A stretch of DNA of 20,829 nucleotides from a virus. Under the pieces are notes generated by a model. That model made no database searches. It was not told the DNA's origin and saw only the letters and a list, made by a program, of their open reading frames with translations. Position 1 is the first letter of the stretch, and each line of letters begins with the position of its first letter. Below, in pieces: positions 2,792 through 10,184 of this stretch. The DNA lies in the IMG/VR virus record IMGVR_UViG_3300040807_000375, positions 1-20,829 of that record, one strand, 5' to 3'. A program made the position numbers and the translations under genes.

Positions 2792-4275
2792 TGGGACTTC
2801 GTACACGATTTCTTAGAAGGCTTGGGTTGCAGCCAATTCCGCAGCAACAGCCTCGTCGCCGCCGCCGCAGCTATGCAGGCGCGATTATTTCGCGACTGAC
2901 GAATGATTGGATGAGTACTCAATCGAGTGCTGATGCTGAGATTCGCAACAGCTTGCGCAAGCTGCGCGATCGTTCCCGCGAAATGGTGCGGAACAATCCG
3001 TACGCAAAGCAGGCGAAACGCACAACGCAAATCAATGTTGTCGGCAGCGGCATCAAACTGCAGTCACAGGTGCAGCAGGTCCGCAGTCGTAAGCCAAGCG
3101 AGGCGATTAACCGGCTGATCGAAGAGAAGTGGAATCTGTGGACTCGCGCTCAGCATTGCGATGTTGCTGGTCGGCACAGTTTCCACATGATGGAATGGCT
3201 GGCGACTGGTGCGCTGCCTGAATCAGGCGAAGCGTTGTTTCGGATCATTCGTCGCCCATTTGGTGGCAGCCGAGTGCCATTGGCGCTTGAGATGCTTGAG
3301 TCCGACGTTTTGGATGAGGAGTATCAAGGCCCGACGCTTGCGAAGAAGAACGAGTGGCGGATGGGCGTTGAGGTCAACGAATGGGGCCGCCCTGTGCGGT
3401 ATGCATTCCTGACTCGTCATCCGGGTGATTACTGGTTCCAAAACGCACCACAGAAAGGAGACAAGCACGTATTTCTTCCTGCAGAGGATGTAATTCATCT
3501 GTTCCTGCCGGAACGGCCTCAGCAGAATCGCGGCGTGCCCTGGTTCCATCCCGTGATGTCCGATGCGCATCAGCTGCAGGGCTATGAAGAAGCTGCAGTG
3601 ATCCGCGCTCGCGCTGGCGCATCGATCATGGGCTTTGTCACGAGCCCTGAGGGCGAGCTTGACGGCGATGATGTCGAAGATGGCCGCCGGATTTCAGAGT
3701 TTGAACCTGGGATGTTCAAGTATCTGGAGCCAGGTCAGAACGTAACGGTCCCAAACATCGACTCGCCTGACCAGCAGTTTGAGATGTTTGTGCGCAATAA
3801 AGTGCGCAGATTTGCAAGCGGTTTTGGATGTAGCTACGAGACTCTGAGTCGTGATTTTTCGGACACGAACTACAGCAGCTCAAGGTTGAGCCTGCTTGAG
3901 GATCGCGAGCACTGGAAGGTTGTGCAGGCTTATCTGATTGAGCATTTTCACAATCGGGTGTTCCGCGAATGGTTGAACCTTGCGGTTTTGGCCGGTGAGC
4001 TGCCGTTCGATGATTACGACACTCGTCCTGAGCGCTATGACTCACCGCGATGGATGGCGCGTGGTTGGGATTGGGTTGATCCACTTAAGGAGGCGAAGGC
4101 TTACCGCGAGATGGAGCAAGCGGGCTACATGACGAAAGCGCAAATTGTCGCGAAACTGGGCGGCGATTTCTACGACAACCTCACCGAGTTCGCGAGAGAG
4201 CAACAAACAGCAGCTGACCTTAATGTTGAGCTTGACAAGGACATCATTGAGCAGCCGCCGGAGGTCATCGAGTAA
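2791..4275 (+). CDS. portal protein, lambda gpB family
   Basis: Forms the dodecameric ring at one capsid vertex through which DNA enters and leaves and to which the tail is joined. The 494 residues begin with a very basic segment (RRRRRSYAGA), followed by a helical region (SADAEIRNSLRKLRDRSREM, RNNPYAKQA) and GSGIKLQSQV. Typical lambda-portal signatures follow: HCDVAGRHSFHMMEWLA, GEALFRIIRRPF, LEMLESDVLDE, the FASGFGCSYETLSRDFSDTN segment and LLEDREHWKVVQAYLIEHFH. Length is close to lambda gpB (533). The ATG overlaps the upstream stop by one base, and the stop overlaps the capsid-gene ATG as TAATG, so translation is likely coupled on both sides. The C-terminal tail after residue 470 is acidic. 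Confidence 0.95.
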   Translation: MGLRTRFLRRLGLQPIPQQQPRRRRRSYAGAIISRLTNDWMSTQSSADAEIRNSLRKLRDRSREMVRNNPYAKQAKRTTQINVVGSGIKLQSQVQQVRSRKPSEAINRLIEEKWNLWTRAQHCDVAGRHSFHMMEWLATGALPESGEALFRIIRRPFGGSRVPLALEMLESDVLDEEYQGPTLAKKNEWRMGVEVNEWGRPVRYAFLTRHPGDYWFQNAPQKGDKHVFLPAEDVIHLFLPERPQQNRGVPWFHPVMSDAHQLQGYEEAAVIRARAGASIMGFVTSPEGELDGDDVEDGRRISEFEPGMFKYLEPGQNVTVPNIDSPDQQFEMFVRNKVRRFASGFGCSYETLSRDFSDTNYSSSRLSLLEDREHWKVVQAYLIEHFHNRVFREWLNLAVLAGELPFDDYDTRPERYDSPRWMARGWDWVDPLKEAKAYREMEQAGYMTKAQIVAKLGGDFYDNLTEFAREQQTAADLNVELDKDIIEQPPEVIE

Positions 4276-6686
4276 TGCCCGCAATGCCGACAGAAGGGAT
4301 GCGCGAAGAAGCGCAGCGTTACAGGGATTGGAAGGAAGAGGGGCGTGAAGGCGGCACTGATGTTGCTGCTCGTCGCGCTTCTCAGATTCTCAGTGGTGAT
4401 GAGTTGAGTGATGAGACCATCGTGACCATGAGCGCATGGTTCGCTCGTCATGAAGTAGACAAGCAGGCTGAAGGGTTCAGCCCTGGAGAGGAGGGTTATC
4501 CATCTCCAGGTCGTGTCGCATGGGCCGCATGGGGCGGCGATGCAGGTAAAACTTGGTCTGATCGACTTGTTGAAGCTATGGATCGTTCAATTGAGACTGA
4601 GCAAAGGGCAGAACCTGATGCTTTGAGTGTTGGTGATTTCGTCAGCTGGAATAGCTCTGGTGGCCGTGCTCGCGGAAAGATTGAGCAAATTGAGCGCGAT
4701 GGTTCAATTGACGTGCCTGATTCTGAGTTCACTGTTAATGGCACCGAGGAAGATCCTGCTGCCTTAATTCAGGTTTATCGCGAGGGCGATGATGGATGGG
4801 AAGCTACTGAGACTAAAGTAGGACATCGATTTAGTACACTGACAAAGATCGAAGCATTACGCGCAATGGAAGTTGATTCTGAAGCGCCAGAAGTTGTCGC
4901 AGAGGAAGAATCCAAAAAGGATTTGACTCGCGAAATTGAAGGCACAAAGTTCCAGCGTGTTGAATCTACAAGTTTCAACATGCTTGATGATCGGAGCATG
5001 GAGTTTCCATTCAGCTCCGAGTATCCCGTGGCTCGTTATTTCGGGAACGAAGTCTTGAGTCATGAGATGGAGTCCGCGAATCTTTCGCGGCTCAACGATG
5101 GCGCACCGCTGTTGTTTAATCATGATCCAGATCGCATGATCGGCGTTGTCGAGCGTGCATGGATCGATGGTGAAAAGAAACGCGGTTACGCAAAAGTGCG
5201 TTTCTCGCGCAATAAATTTGCGCAAGAAGTGCTTGAGGACGTTCGCGACGGAATCCTTCGCGGCGTTTCTTTCGGTTACTCCATCGATAAGATGGAGGAG
5301 CGTAATAATGATTTCGTAGCAACCAATTGGTCGCCCTACGAGGTCTCGCTAGCCGTTATTCCGGCTGACCCTACCGTCGGAGTTGGGCGTTCTTTAGAGG
5401 ACACCAATTCTGAACCTGCGGCTTCAACCGCATCTCCTGAAAACACTGTGACTGAACCTGTCATGGACAACACTCCTGACCTGGAGGTGATCCGGTCCGA
5501 GGCCGTAGAGGCCGAGCGTACCCGGACTGCTTCTATCTCCAAGCTGGGCGAGCGTCATGCTCTGCCTGAGCTGGCACGTGAACTGATCGACGGCGGCAAG
5601 TCTGTCGATGAAGCTCGTGCTGCATTCCTCGAAAAAATCGGCACCCAACCCGTGGAACACAGCATCACCGCCAACGATCTTGGCCTGACCGAGAAGGAGA
5701 CTCGCTCCTTCAGCTTCGTTAAAGCTCTGAACTTCCTCTCTAATCAGGGTGATGCTCAGGCTCGTCGCGACGCCGCCTTTGAAATCGAAGTTGGCGAAGC
5801 CGCTGCCAAGAAGTACGAGCGTTCTTCTAACGGCATCGTTATTCCTAACGAAGTCCTTCGTCGTGACCTCGTCGTCGGCACCCCTACCGCTGGTGGTGAT
5901 CTGGTTGATGATGTGCTCCTGGCTGGCAGCTTCATCGATCTGCTGCGCAACCGTCTGGCAATCGCCCAGGCTGGTGCAACCATGCTGACCGGTCTGCAGG
6001 GCAATGTTTCTATCCCCCGCCAGACTTCAGCTGCAACTGCTTACTGGGTTGGCGAGAACTCTGCTCCCACCGAGTCCCAGCAGGCCATCGACCAAGTGAA
6101 TCTGAGCCCAAAAACGGTTGGTGCTTTTGTTGACTACTCCCGTCGTCTTCTGCTTCAGAGCAGCATTGACGTTGAGGGTATGGTCCGCAATGACCTGGCT
6201 CGTGTGATTGCACTGGAAATCGACCGCGCTGCTATCTACGGCACCGGTTCTTCCAACCAGCCTCTTGGCCTGACCAACGTGAGCGGCATTGGCTCCGAGA
6301 CCCTGACCGGAACCGGCACCTTCGCTGAGTTCATCGCGATGGAAACCGACGTTGCTGCAGCTAACGCTGATGCTGGCGCTCTGCGTTACATCGTGAACGC
6401 AACCACCCGTGGCGGTCTGAAGGGCACCAAGAAGGATGCTGGTAGCGGCGAATTCGTGTTCGCTGATGGTGAGATCAACGGCTATCCCGCGATCGTCTCC
6501 AACCAGCTCGCCAACAACGATGCACTCTTCGGTGACTTCTCCATGTTCATCATGGGCATGTGGTCTGGCCTGGATCTGACTGTGGATCCTTACGCTGGCG
6601 CTACTGCTGGCACCGTTCGCGTGATTGCGCTGCAGGATGTGGACTTCGCTGTTAAGCAGCCTGGCGCCTTCTGCTTCGCCACCTGA
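4275..6686 (+). CDS. prohead protease-major capsid polyprotein with two extra N-terminal domains
   Basis: One uninterrupted 803-residue frame with at least four modules. (1) Residues 1-107 form a helical domain with SDETIVTMSAWFARHEVDK and PSPGRVAWAAWGGDAGKTW, a recurring phage-head domain of unknown role. (2) Residues 117-192 (VGDFVSWNSSGGRARGKI to GHRFSTLTKI) resemble the HVA1/Tudor-like fold. (3) Residues 219-375 are an S78/HK97-gp4-type prohead protease, with probable catalytic H283 (LLFNHDP) and S332 (LRGVSFGYSI); E356 (PYEVSLAVIPADP) is a possible third residue. (4) Residues 397-520 are helical and scaffold/delta-like, leading into an HK97-fold major capsid protein (IVIPNEV, AYWVGENSAPTES, DVEGMVRNDLARVIALEIDR, YGTGSSNQPLGL). 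Protease and capsid are usually separate genes, though fusions are known. The codon switch near Met397 (5463) suggests separate high-level production of the capsid part. Processing sites cannot be read from the sequence. Confidence 0.93.
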   Translation: MPAMPTEGMREEAQRYRDWKEEGREGGTDVAARRASQILSGDELSDETIVTMSAWFARHEVDKQAEGFSPGEEGYPSPGRVAWAAWGGDAGKTWSDRLVEAMDRSIETEQRAEPDALSVGDFVSWNSSGGRARGKIEQIERDGSIDVPDSEFTVNGTEEDPAALIQVYREGDDGWEATETKVGHRFSTLTKIEALRAMEVDSEAPEVVAEEESKKDLTREIEGTKFQRVESTSFNMLDDRSMEFPFSSEYPVARYFGNEVLSHEMESANLSRLNDGAPLLFNHDPDRMIGVVERAWIDGEKKRGYAKVRFSRNKFAQEVLEDVRDGILRGVSFGYSIDKMEERNNDFVATNWSPYEVSLAVIPADPTVGVGRSLEDTNSEPAASTASPENTVTEPVMDNTPDLEVIRSEAVEAERTRTASISKLGERHALPELARELIDGGKSVDEARAAFLEKIGTQPVEHSITANDLGLTEKETRSFSFVKALNFLSNQGDAQARRDAAFEIEVGEAAAKKYERSSNGIVIPNEVLRRDLVVGTPTAGGDLVDDVLLAGSFIDLLRNRLAIAQAGATMLTGLQGNVSIPRQTSAATAYWVGENSAPTESQQAIDQVNLSPKTVGAFVDYSRRLLLQSSIDVEGMVRNDLARVIALEIDRAAIYGTGSSNQPLGLTNVSGIGSETLTGTGTFAEFIAMETDVAAANADAGALRYIVNATTRGGLKGTKKDAGSGEFVFADGEINGYPAIVSNQLANNDALFGDFSMFIMGMWSGLDLTVDPYAGATAGTVRVIALQDVDFAVKQPGAFCFAT

Positions 6687-6691
6687 TTCTC

Positions 6692-6925
6692 ATGAGACTT
6701 GAGATCACACGCAATGTGATGATCAACGGGGAGCCTGTGAAAGCAGGCTCCTTTGTTGAAGTCGAGATAGGCATTGCAAATTTGCTGATTGGCAGCGACA
6801 AGGCGAAGGTTGCTCCTAAAGAGGAACCGAAGCCGAAGCTGGAGATCCAGCAGAAGCCTGTCAAATCAGAACCCAAGCCTGTAGCTCGACGCGGGCGACC
6901 GAAAACCGATTCTGGTGAAGACTGA
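6692..6925 (+). CDS. small basic-tailed head protein with AT-hook-like motif
   Basis: 77 residues encoded five bases after the capsid stop. The N-terminal 35 residues form a compact beta-like unit (RLEITRNVMINGEPVKAGSF, then VEVEIGIANLLI). The rest is a Pro/Lys/Glu-rich, probably disordered tail (EEPKPKLEIQQKPVKSEPKP) ending in RRGRPK at 66-71, which matches the core of an AT-hook, a minor-groove DNA-binding motif. Small proteins of this design, with an rNVMidGkPVkaG-like opening, recur directly after major capsid genes. Their function is not established; roles in head completion or packaged-DNA contact are inference. The stop overlaps the next ATG (TGATG). A terminator-like hairpin lies within codons 13-20. 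No convincing ribosome-binding site is present. Confidence 0.7.
   Translation: MRLEITRNVMINGEPVKAGSFVEVEIGIANLLIGSDKAKVAPKEEPKPKLEIQQKPVKSEPKPVARRGRPKTDSGED
6730..6757 (+). terminator. terminator-like hairpin inside the gene after the capsid gene
   Basis: Perfect 8-bp inverted repeat GGAGCCTG (6730-6737) with CAGGCTCC (6744-6751), loop TGAAAG (or a U-G closed GAAA tetraloop), followed by TTTGTT. It lies 44 bases after the major capsid stop, within codons 13-20 of the next gene. The U-tract is interrupted, so termination would be partial. It could also simply stabilise the 3' end of the capsid mRNA. Confidence 0.45.
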
Positions 6926-7296
6926 TGGCAATTCTTTCTGTGGGGCTTGAAAAGCTTTCCCACTTTGCTTTGGCTCCTACAGCCGAGCGCACTGCAAACT
7001 TGGACGGCACCGCTGTTGACCTTGTTGACTACGAGGGTGACATCGTTGTGATTCTTGACGTTGAGAACGGTGGAACCTCCACCCTTGACGTGAAGATTCA
7101 GTCTGCAGACACCTCCGGTGGTACGTACTCTGATGTTTCTGGTGCTGCGTTCACTCAAGTGAGCACAACGGCCAGCAAGCAGACCTTGGTTTTCGCCAAG
7201 GGTGATGCTAAGCGCTACATCAAGGCTGTTTCGACCACTTCTACTTCAACCCACACCTATAGCATTAACGCTTTTGGTGCCCTGAAGTACGCCTGA
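6925..7296 (+). CDS. putative capsid decoration-like beta-sandwich protein
   Basis: 123 residues, almost all beta-strand in character and rich in Thr, Ser and Asp. A central VVILDVENGGTSTLDVKIQS strand pair is followed by SGGTYSDVSGAAFTQV and KRYIKAVSTTSTSTHTYSI. The scheme (strand, deviation from ideal, DVSGAAFT, KRYIKA) is one I associate with small structural proteins next to phage major capsid genes, often proposed as decoration or head-accessory proteins. It takes the place of lambda gpD in the head cluster but sits after, not before, the capsid gene, and I see no real gpD similarity. Codon use is partly of the C-ending, highly expressed type. A strong intrinsic terminator follows within ten bases of the stop, fitting a protein needed in many copies. 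Confidence 0.6.
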   Translation: MAILSVGLEKLSHFALAPTAERTANLDGTAVDLVDYEGDIVVILDVENGGTSTLDVKIQSADTSGGTYSDVSGAAFTQVSTTASKQTLVFAKGDAKRYIKAVSTTSTSTHTYSINAFGALKYA

Positions 7297-9455: not shown

Positions 9456-9481
9456 AAGGGTCGCATTGCGGCCCTTTTTTT
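9456..9481 (+). terminator. intrinsic terminator after tail tube gene
   Basis: Stem GGGTCGC (9458-9464) with GCGGCCC (9468-9474), one G-U pair, loop ATT, followed by seven T (9475-9481); A9456-A9457 can extend the stem into the T-tract. It follows the major tail protein stop by about 20 bases. Confidence 0.85.
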
Positions 9482-9494
9482 ATTGCTGTATAGT
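9466..9494 (+). promoter_or_regulatory. possible promoter overlapping the terminator
   Basis: TTGCGG (9466-9471) and TATAGT (9489-9494) are separated by 17 bases. The -10 matches the sigma-70 consensus at five of six positions; the -35 matches at three. The -35 lies within the terminator hairpin. If active it would restart transcription just before the chaperone and tape measure genes. Weak evidence, since such pairs arise by chance. Confidence 0.22.
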
Positions 9495-9516
9495 TTGCTG
9501 GAGTCTATTTTGCCTC

Positions 9517-9843
9517 ATGGCTTTTATTCGCAAAAAGGTTAAGACCTTCAAGTGGCCTGTAACTGTTGAAGAGCCTACTGACGGCGGTGTATTTGAAGAA
9601 TCTAAGTTTGACGCAATTTTCAAGCGTGTGCCTCGTTCTGAGTTCCAGAAGCTTGCAGACAAAGGTGACCTTGAGCTTTTGAAGGCTGTGCTGACTGGCT
9701 GGGAGGGTATTGAGGATGAGGACGGTAAAGCTGTGCCGTTTTCGCAGGTAACCATGAAAGAATTTGCTGATGATCCTTACTGGATTCGCGGCGTGCTGAA
9801 GGCTTACACCGAAACCTTCGAGGGTGCTCGTCTGGGAAACTGA
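9517..9843 (+). CDS. tail assembly chaperone, G-type (short product)
   Basis: 108 residues: MAFIRKKVKTFKWPVTVEEP, a SKFDAIFKRVPRSEFQKL segment, LLKAVLTGWEGIEDEDGKAV and a helical end DPYWIRGVLKAYTETFEGAR. This matches phage tail assembly chaperones that coat the tape measure before tube polymerisation, equivalent to lambda gpG. The ATG at 9517 is preferred over an in-frame TTG at 9466, because the extension would be Cys/Phe-rich and would be encoded by the terminator. A GGAG lies 13 bases upstream, which is distant. The frame ends Gly-Asn-stop, where GGA AAC TGA is part of a slippery heptamer, so a fraction of ribosomes should continue into the longer product. Confidence 0.88.
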   Translation: MAFIRKKVKTFKWPVTVEEPTDGGVFEESKFDAIFKRVPRSEFQKLADKGDLELLKAVLTGWEGIEDEDGKAVPFSQVTMKEFADDPYWIRGVLKAYTETFEGARLGN

Positions 9844-10184
9844 AGTATGCCGTTGAGTACTGGGCGAAAGGCGGCAAGAAGGTAGAAGACAAAAGTGCTG
9901 ATGATGCTGCTGCATTCGGTTTGAAGCCGCAGCGTCAGGCCGCTCCAGAGGAGGAGCATTGTGAGGTATGGGAAGAAAACTGGGAATCGTTGATGATGTT
10001 CCTGCGTATGCAAACGCAATGGAATGTCACAATGGGTGGTTATGTCGGCTTGAAGTACGAAGTGTTGCTTGGTGCCGGTGGCTTGATGTCCCTTTATGAT
10101 GTAGATAATCCACGCGGCTTGCTAGAGGACATCCAAGTGATGGAAGCAACCGCGCTCGCAGAACTGAACAAAAAAGATGGCTAA
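9517..10184 (+). CDS. tail assembly chaperone, GT-type frameshift product
   Basis: If ribosomes slip back one base at G GGA AAC (9834-9840), decoding continues CTG AAG TAT from position 9840 to the TAA at 10182-10184. This adds 114 residues for a product of about 222. The extension (YAVEYWAKGGKK, then EEEHCEVWEENWESLMMFLR, MGGYVGLKYEVLL, NPRGLLEDIQVMEATAL) is a plausible protein with no good start codon of its own: the frame is open across the junction and has only a TTG at 9921. In lambda the G and GT products are both essential, GT linking tape measure to tube subunits. The tape measure ATG at 10177 overlaps the end of this frame by eight bases. Frequency of slippage cannot be read from the sequence. 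Confidence 0.85.
9834..9840 (+). other. -1 ribosomal frameshift slippery site GGGAAAC
   Basis: The heptamer fits X XXY YYZ in the reading frame of the short chaperone (G GGA AAC) and is followed at once by the in-frame TGA. Lambda uses G GGA AAG at the same genetic location. A weak potential stem (TGCCG at 9848-9852 with CGGCA at 9872-9876) lies downstream, but a convincing stimulatory structure is not evident by eye. Confidence 0.85.

Follow-up and report, generated by a model that had tools for sequence, protein, structure and literature searches.

A phage protease-capsid fusion gene with two probable products: a scarce fusion protein and an abundant capsid protein

Introduction

How can a phage limit the number of protease molecules in its head when the protease and the major capsid protein are parts of the same open reading frame (ORF)? 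The question is raised by a viral DNA of 20,829 nucleotides (IMG/VR record IMGVR_UViG_3300040807_000375). This whole stretch is referred to here as the window. An ORF on its + strand at 4275..6686 (803 aa) joins a prohead protease to a capsid protein, and the parts of this ORF described below are on the same strand. Annotation as a single protein leaves unexplained how a prohead with hundreds of capsid subunits fits equally many proteases.

Other genes of this kind are on record. A single gene for protease, scaffold and capsid has been published for Pseudomonas phage MD8 (PMC8508860). The same fused layout is found in PAJU2 ('prohead protease fused capsid protein'), phrog_617 and phrog_4523. 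Unlike the reading that we set out below, in which two products are made, the descriptions of these fusions give each gene a single protein. The window also resembles genes 4 and 5 of HK97, where an S78 protease is followed by a capsid protein with an N-terminal delta domain as scaffold. However, in HK97 the protease and the capsid are encoded by two separate genes (PMC8508860).

Results

Organisation of the protease-capsid ORF

The ATG of the 803-aa ORF overlaps the portal stop codon and follows a GGAGG Shine-Dalgarno sequence (4260..4264; duplex -10.7 kcal/mol). The encoded protein comprises, in order, an N-terminal domain, a Tudor-like domain, an S78 protease, a linker, a delta (scaffold) domain and an HK97-fold major capsid protein. 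The N-terminal domain matches phrog_2859 (residues 5-105; 4287..4589) and is variable or absent among relatives. It is followed by a Hva1_TUDOR domain (residues 120-171; 4632..4787; Pfam E 1.4e-7). The protease (residues 265-371; 5067..5387) is assigned to Peptidase_S78 by its Pfam profile (PF04586; E 1.5e-8, 35.4 bits against a cut-off of 21) and by the catalytic residues His283 and Ser332, which are invariant in 30 homologues; its activity is predicted. A match to phrog_617 spans residues 232-802 of the protein.

The linker (5388..5480) varies in length among relatives and is predicted to be disordered, with pLDDT <50 at residues 362-403. Directly after it, from residue 403, the structure model places a confident helix (pLDDT >80). 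This model was built on a shallow alignment and is poor in the capsid part; it was used solely to define the boundary between linker and helix. The HK97-fold capsid domain occupies residues 540-802 (5892..6680; PF05065, E 1.5e-46). The profile and the helical scaffold segment that precedes it identify an HK97-type capsid with a delta domain, the capsid fold itself being predicted from the profile.

The phrog_2859 domain (4275-4590) is missing in S-LBS1 and in loci L054-L056, L059, L060 and L074. It is longer in L064-L069 and, in roseophage CRP-823, forms a separate ORF (L094: 980-1696). Elsewhere in the window, the tail assembly chaperone region (9466-10184), ahead of the tape measure gene, matches phrog_569 and phrog_313. 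One would expect this region to have a programmed frameshift of the G/GT kind. The host of the window phage can be judged from relatives only, namely Synechococcus phages S-CBS1, S-CBS3 and S-LBS1 and roseophage CRP-811 (about 46-51% identity).

Codon usage changes within the linker

A preliminary description of this locus reported an abrupt switch in codon usage near an internal ATG at position 5463. The codon counts given there are exact, and this ATG is indeed codon 397. Codons 1-396 include five TTG and three TTA, two AGG, nine AAT and four AAC. In codons 397-803 there are no TTG, TTA, AGA or AGG codons, and AAC outnumbers AAT by 15 to 4. Between the same two segments, the share of CTG among Leu codons rises from 2/18 to 25/36, and that of ACC among Thr codons from 7/21 to 21/29. 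A change-point test on synonymous codons gave a log Bayes factor of 17.4. Equivalent values for 300 shuffles of synonymous codons, which preserved the protein and the codon totals, averaged -1.8 and reached 8.6 at most. The codon switch is real and well beyond chance.

The best single break falls after codon 374 (95% interval 287-397), with codon 397 at the edge of the interval. We also derived a capsid codon score, trained on codons 501-803 only and set against the background of all other genes in the window. Summed along the ORF, this score has its turning point at codon 371 and shows a steady rise from about codon 410. A codon index taken along the ORF does, then, change in the linker around codon 397. 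An abrupt change placed exactly at 5463 would be more precise than the data allow: the switch lies in the linker that contains Met397, and can be narrowed down only to about codons 371-410.

Codons 397-500, which are outside the training segment, score +0.290 per codon. By comparison, the protease scores -0.096, codons 1-200 score -0.110 and every other window gene lies between -0.310 and -0.001. The protease half resembles the remaining window genes; it is the capsid half that stands apart. The stretch after ATG5463 is the sole part of the window with such codon usage. The delta region equals the capsid core in score, though it was not used in training; hence, the favoured unit begins where the precursor begins. 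The delta domain is cut off during maturation of HK97-type heads. Since the favoured codon usage covers a domain that is lost in maturation, selection acts on the complete capsid precursor (delta domain and capsid, 407 aa), not on the mature shell protein. The corresponding segment, 5463..6683, has the codon usage of a highly expressed gene and would encode a second product.

A candidate internal start in the window and its close relatives

The free capsid precursor would begin at ATG5463 (5463..5465). The residue encoded, Met397, is six residues ahead of the delta helices. Adding 80 close IMG/VR relatives to the window gave a set of 81 sequences. The linker ATG is present in 81/81, although the length and sequence of the linker vary, as does the distance from the ATG to the delta helix; this distance differs by one codon between two groups of close relatives. 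Capsid-like codon usage is higher in the delta region than in the protease in 27/29 dereplicated close relatives. There is also a second candidate start, GTG or ATG, positioned 12-15 bases 5' of the linker ATG in 72/81 of the set. In the window this is the GTG at codon 392 (5448..5450). In this clade, translation of the capsid precursor would most likely start at the site of ATG5463, with GTG/ATG5448 as the possible alternative.

The window does not have a recognisable ribosome-binding signal at ATG5463. As the preliminary description had remarked, no Shine-Dalgarno sequence is visible (duplex -3.4 kcal/mol), and the openness of the mRNA is average (rank 36%). Throughout the clade a Shine-Dalgarno sequence is absent before the internal ATG and the mRNA around it is no more open than elsewhere, whereas the Shine-Dalgarno sequence of the full-length ORF is strong. 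However, about two thirds of the other window genes, the tail tube gene included, also have none. This weakens, but does not remove, the objection posed by the missing signal. Because most other genes of the window share this property, this phage seems to recognise starts without a Shine-Dalgarno sequence as a matter of course.

The strongest synonymous-site conservation of the entire ORF is found just after the internal ATG, at codons 403-413 (5481..5513; CTGGAGGTGATCCGGTCCGAGGCCGTAGAGGCC). Synonymous sites here are almost invariant in 43 dereplicated relatives, and a rare CGG codon is kept in 43/43. The stretch holds GGAGGTGATC (5483-5492), a 10-nt complement of the 16S 3' end, located 20 nt 3' of the internal ATG. 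We rejected GGAGGTGATC as an ordinary Shine-Dalgarno sequence. No ATG, GTG or TTG lies at a usable distance downstream, and the element is missing in L061 and in the isolates S-CBS1, S-CBS3 and S-LBS1. Pairing between CATCTCC (5428-5434) and GGAGGTG (5483-5489), with the ATG in the loop, is absent from the consensus fold. Conserved RNA structure at the start was likewise set aside for this clade, the consensus hairpins being weak (5417-5432 and two short ones downstream). The hairpin-like repeat TGCGG-CTTCAA-CCGCA at 5417-5432, within the linker, is kept in many relatives with an altered loop and could be a by-product of the Ala-rich linker.

Internal starts in fused homologues beyond the clade

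Fused homologues were collected from 23 annotated phages. Their hosts are Synechococcus, Roseobacter, Vibrio, Halomonas, Pseudomonas, Acinetobacter, Serratia, Klebsiella, Enterobacter, E. coli, Burkholderia, Achromobacter, Rhodobacter, Xanthomonas, Paenibacillus and Stenotrophomonas. All 23 have an ATG in the same linker (23/23), and the codon shift on the capsid side is also present in 23/23. For the 20 phages with non-cyanobacterial hosts, the median duplex energy at the linker ATG is -5.85 kcal/mol, compared with -2.5 kcal/mol at 301 other in-frame ATGs (p 2.6e-8; because the homologues share ancestry and are not independent, such p-values are too strong and only indicative). Folding near the linker ATG is, at the median of the 23 phages, weaker than at ~95% of codons.

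A further set of 80 loci, from bacterial genomes in GTDB, was analysed with the linker delimited by a fixed rule. The linker ATG is present in 80/80, and the median duplex energy is again -5.85 kcal/mol, against -2.5 kcal/mol at 1212 control in-frame ATGs. The open-structure rank at the linker ATG is 2.9%. Complementarity to the 16S 3' end forms a sharp peak at -16 to -11 from the linker ATG, with none on either side; for this profile, the ATG was chosen independently of Shine-Dalgarno strength. The motifs AGGA, GGAG or GAGG begin between -15 and -8 in 55/79 loci, compared with 2-8 in displaced intervals. The capsid-side codon shift is found in 59/79.

When all sets are pooled, the linker ATG is present in the 184 sequences checked (81 + 23 + 80). 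Taken by itself this argues only weakly for an internal start, because control segments of the same length often contain an ATG by chance (expected 62.5/80, about 78%). The placement of the ATG, the Shine-Dalgarno sequence and the openness of the mRNA carry the case. Judged by these features, a conserved internal in-frame start with a ribosome-binding signal is evident in the wider family; in the window, the signal is missing at this start.

The same arrangement is seen in individual fusions. PAJU2 has a linker ATG with a Shine-Dalgarno duplex of -10.8 kcal/mol and an mRNA openness rank of 4.7%. In Helicobacter prophages, which are 23-25% identical, AAGGAG is found ~eight bases ahead of the linker ATG. 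One such prophage (L106:931-2676) has two copies of AAGGAGAAGAAAATATGCC in the linker, 42 nt apart, and these form two successive Shine-Dalgarno/ATG sites for the capsid.

Pseudomonas phage MD8 (L189, 2372-4453) differs from the window in that its capsid is fused to an apparent ClpP-like protease, as read from the sequence, rather than to an S78 enzyme. Its linker ATG has a Shine-Dalgarno duplex of -6.9 kcal/mol and an openness rank of 1.7%. A stronger Shine-Dalgarno-like site precedes an ATG within the MD8 protease domain, but the RNA is structured there. The combination of linker ATG, Shine-Dalgarno sequence and open mRNA in MD8 suggests that dual-product fusions arose more than once.

A split homologue is present in a gut phage scaffold (L104). 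Here, a 183-aa protease gene and a 405-aa capsid gene are separate, the end of the first overlapping the ATG of the second. This free capsid protein is nearly equal in length to the 407-aa internal product proposed for the window.

Discussion

Two proteins are probably made from the gene at 4275..6686: a protease-capsid fusion in small amount and a capsid protein in large amount. We favour, with a probability of about 0.88, an arrangement of two in-frame nested genes: a low-abundance fusion would be made from 4275, and an excess of capsid precursor from an internal start in the linker. The preliminary description had suggested an internal start near 5463, with the capsid translated more often than the protease. 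This proposal has strong support from the linker ATG in 184 sequences and from the recurrent codon shift. Outside the window's clade, it also gains from the position-specific Shine-Dalgarno peak and from low mRNA structure in most such homologues. Against it, the change-point estimate is slightly upstream of ATG5463.

In our model, translation from 4275 would give few copies of a protease-delta-capsid fusion. Separate, independent initiation within the linker, with ATG5463 as the most likely site, would give a large excess of delta domain plus HK97-fold shell protein. Both forms would co-assemble via the shared capsid part, so limiting the protease copies in the prohead. The protease would then remove the delta domains and itself. 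The prohead would thus gain a protease without a 1:1 ratio. We infer internal initiation and the excess of the short form from sequence comparison, codon usage being indirect support for the excess. Co-assembly is suggested by analogy with HK97 and lambda biology.

A capsid-only product might instead arise from a promoter within the protease region, with the resulting mRNA translated from near 5463. Herpesvirus UL26 is a protease-scaffold ORF with a nested in-frame C-terminal product, UL26.5; unlike the product proposed here, this short form comes from its own transcript and is scaffold only. An internal transcript would account for the codon switch without a Shine-Dalgarno sequence in the window's clade, and the synonymous-site conservation could mark a nucleic-acid element. 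However, the conserved stretch is located 3' of the ATG, and the Shine-Dalgarno sequence in most homologues favours translational control. A scan of 4200-6950, limited to promoters of the sigma-70-like type, found 0 against 1.5 expected. We consider a separate transcript improbable.

It is very improbable that the full-length protein is the sole translation product, to be cut afterwards, with the codons of the second half reflecting the speed or accuracy of capsid folding. One CDS is annotated in all records, and cleavage by the S78 protease is expected in any case. Yet the switch takes in the delta domain, which is discarded, and neither the Shine-Dalgarno peak nor the openness of the mRNA at the linker ATG would be explained. 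The alternative offered in the preliminary description, a recent joining of two genes that differ in codon history, is hardly credible and we reject it: the halves do differ in codon usage and the N-terminal domains are variable among relatives, but the fused layout is old and widespread, carrying the same shift in homologues at 30-50% identity from cyanophages, roseophages, vibriophages, enterobacterial phages and prophages of many genera, and it is the capsid half, not the protease half, that departs from the other window genes.

Nested in-frame head genes have a precedent in lambda, where C and Nu3 encode protease and scaffold (Shaw and Murialdo 1980, as cited in PMC8508860). As proposed for the window, an internal in-frame start in the lambda head protease gene yields the C-terminal part by itself, and in larger amounts, and the shared part carries the protease into the prohead. 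However, the lambda nested product is a scaffold, and the major capsid protein E has a separate gene; that of the window would be a scaffold domain together with the major capsid protein. Our search of the open-access literature turned up no description of an internal capsid start for such fusions, and a word search of the MD8 paper (PMC8508860) found no mention of an internal start codon. Hence, the fusion is already known, and the nested capsid start is apparently unreported in that literature.

Protease-capsid fusion genes may in general be dual-product. We give even odds to this broader reading, in which S78-type fusions, the D3-like PAJU2 and the ClpP-like MD8 would all keep an internal capsid start because protease and capsid in a fixed 1:1 ratio would be unworkable. 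In the cyanophage-like clade, the start would have lost its Shine-Dalgarno sequence and be recognised otherwise, possibly helped by the nearly invariant GGAGGTGATC downstream.

A conserved internal start would resolve the problem of protease excess. Many public phage records would then miss the true start of the major capsid gene, with consequences for annotation, for the interpretation of mass spectrometry, for structural work and for capsid expression. Codon usage within one reading frame can expose nested genes.
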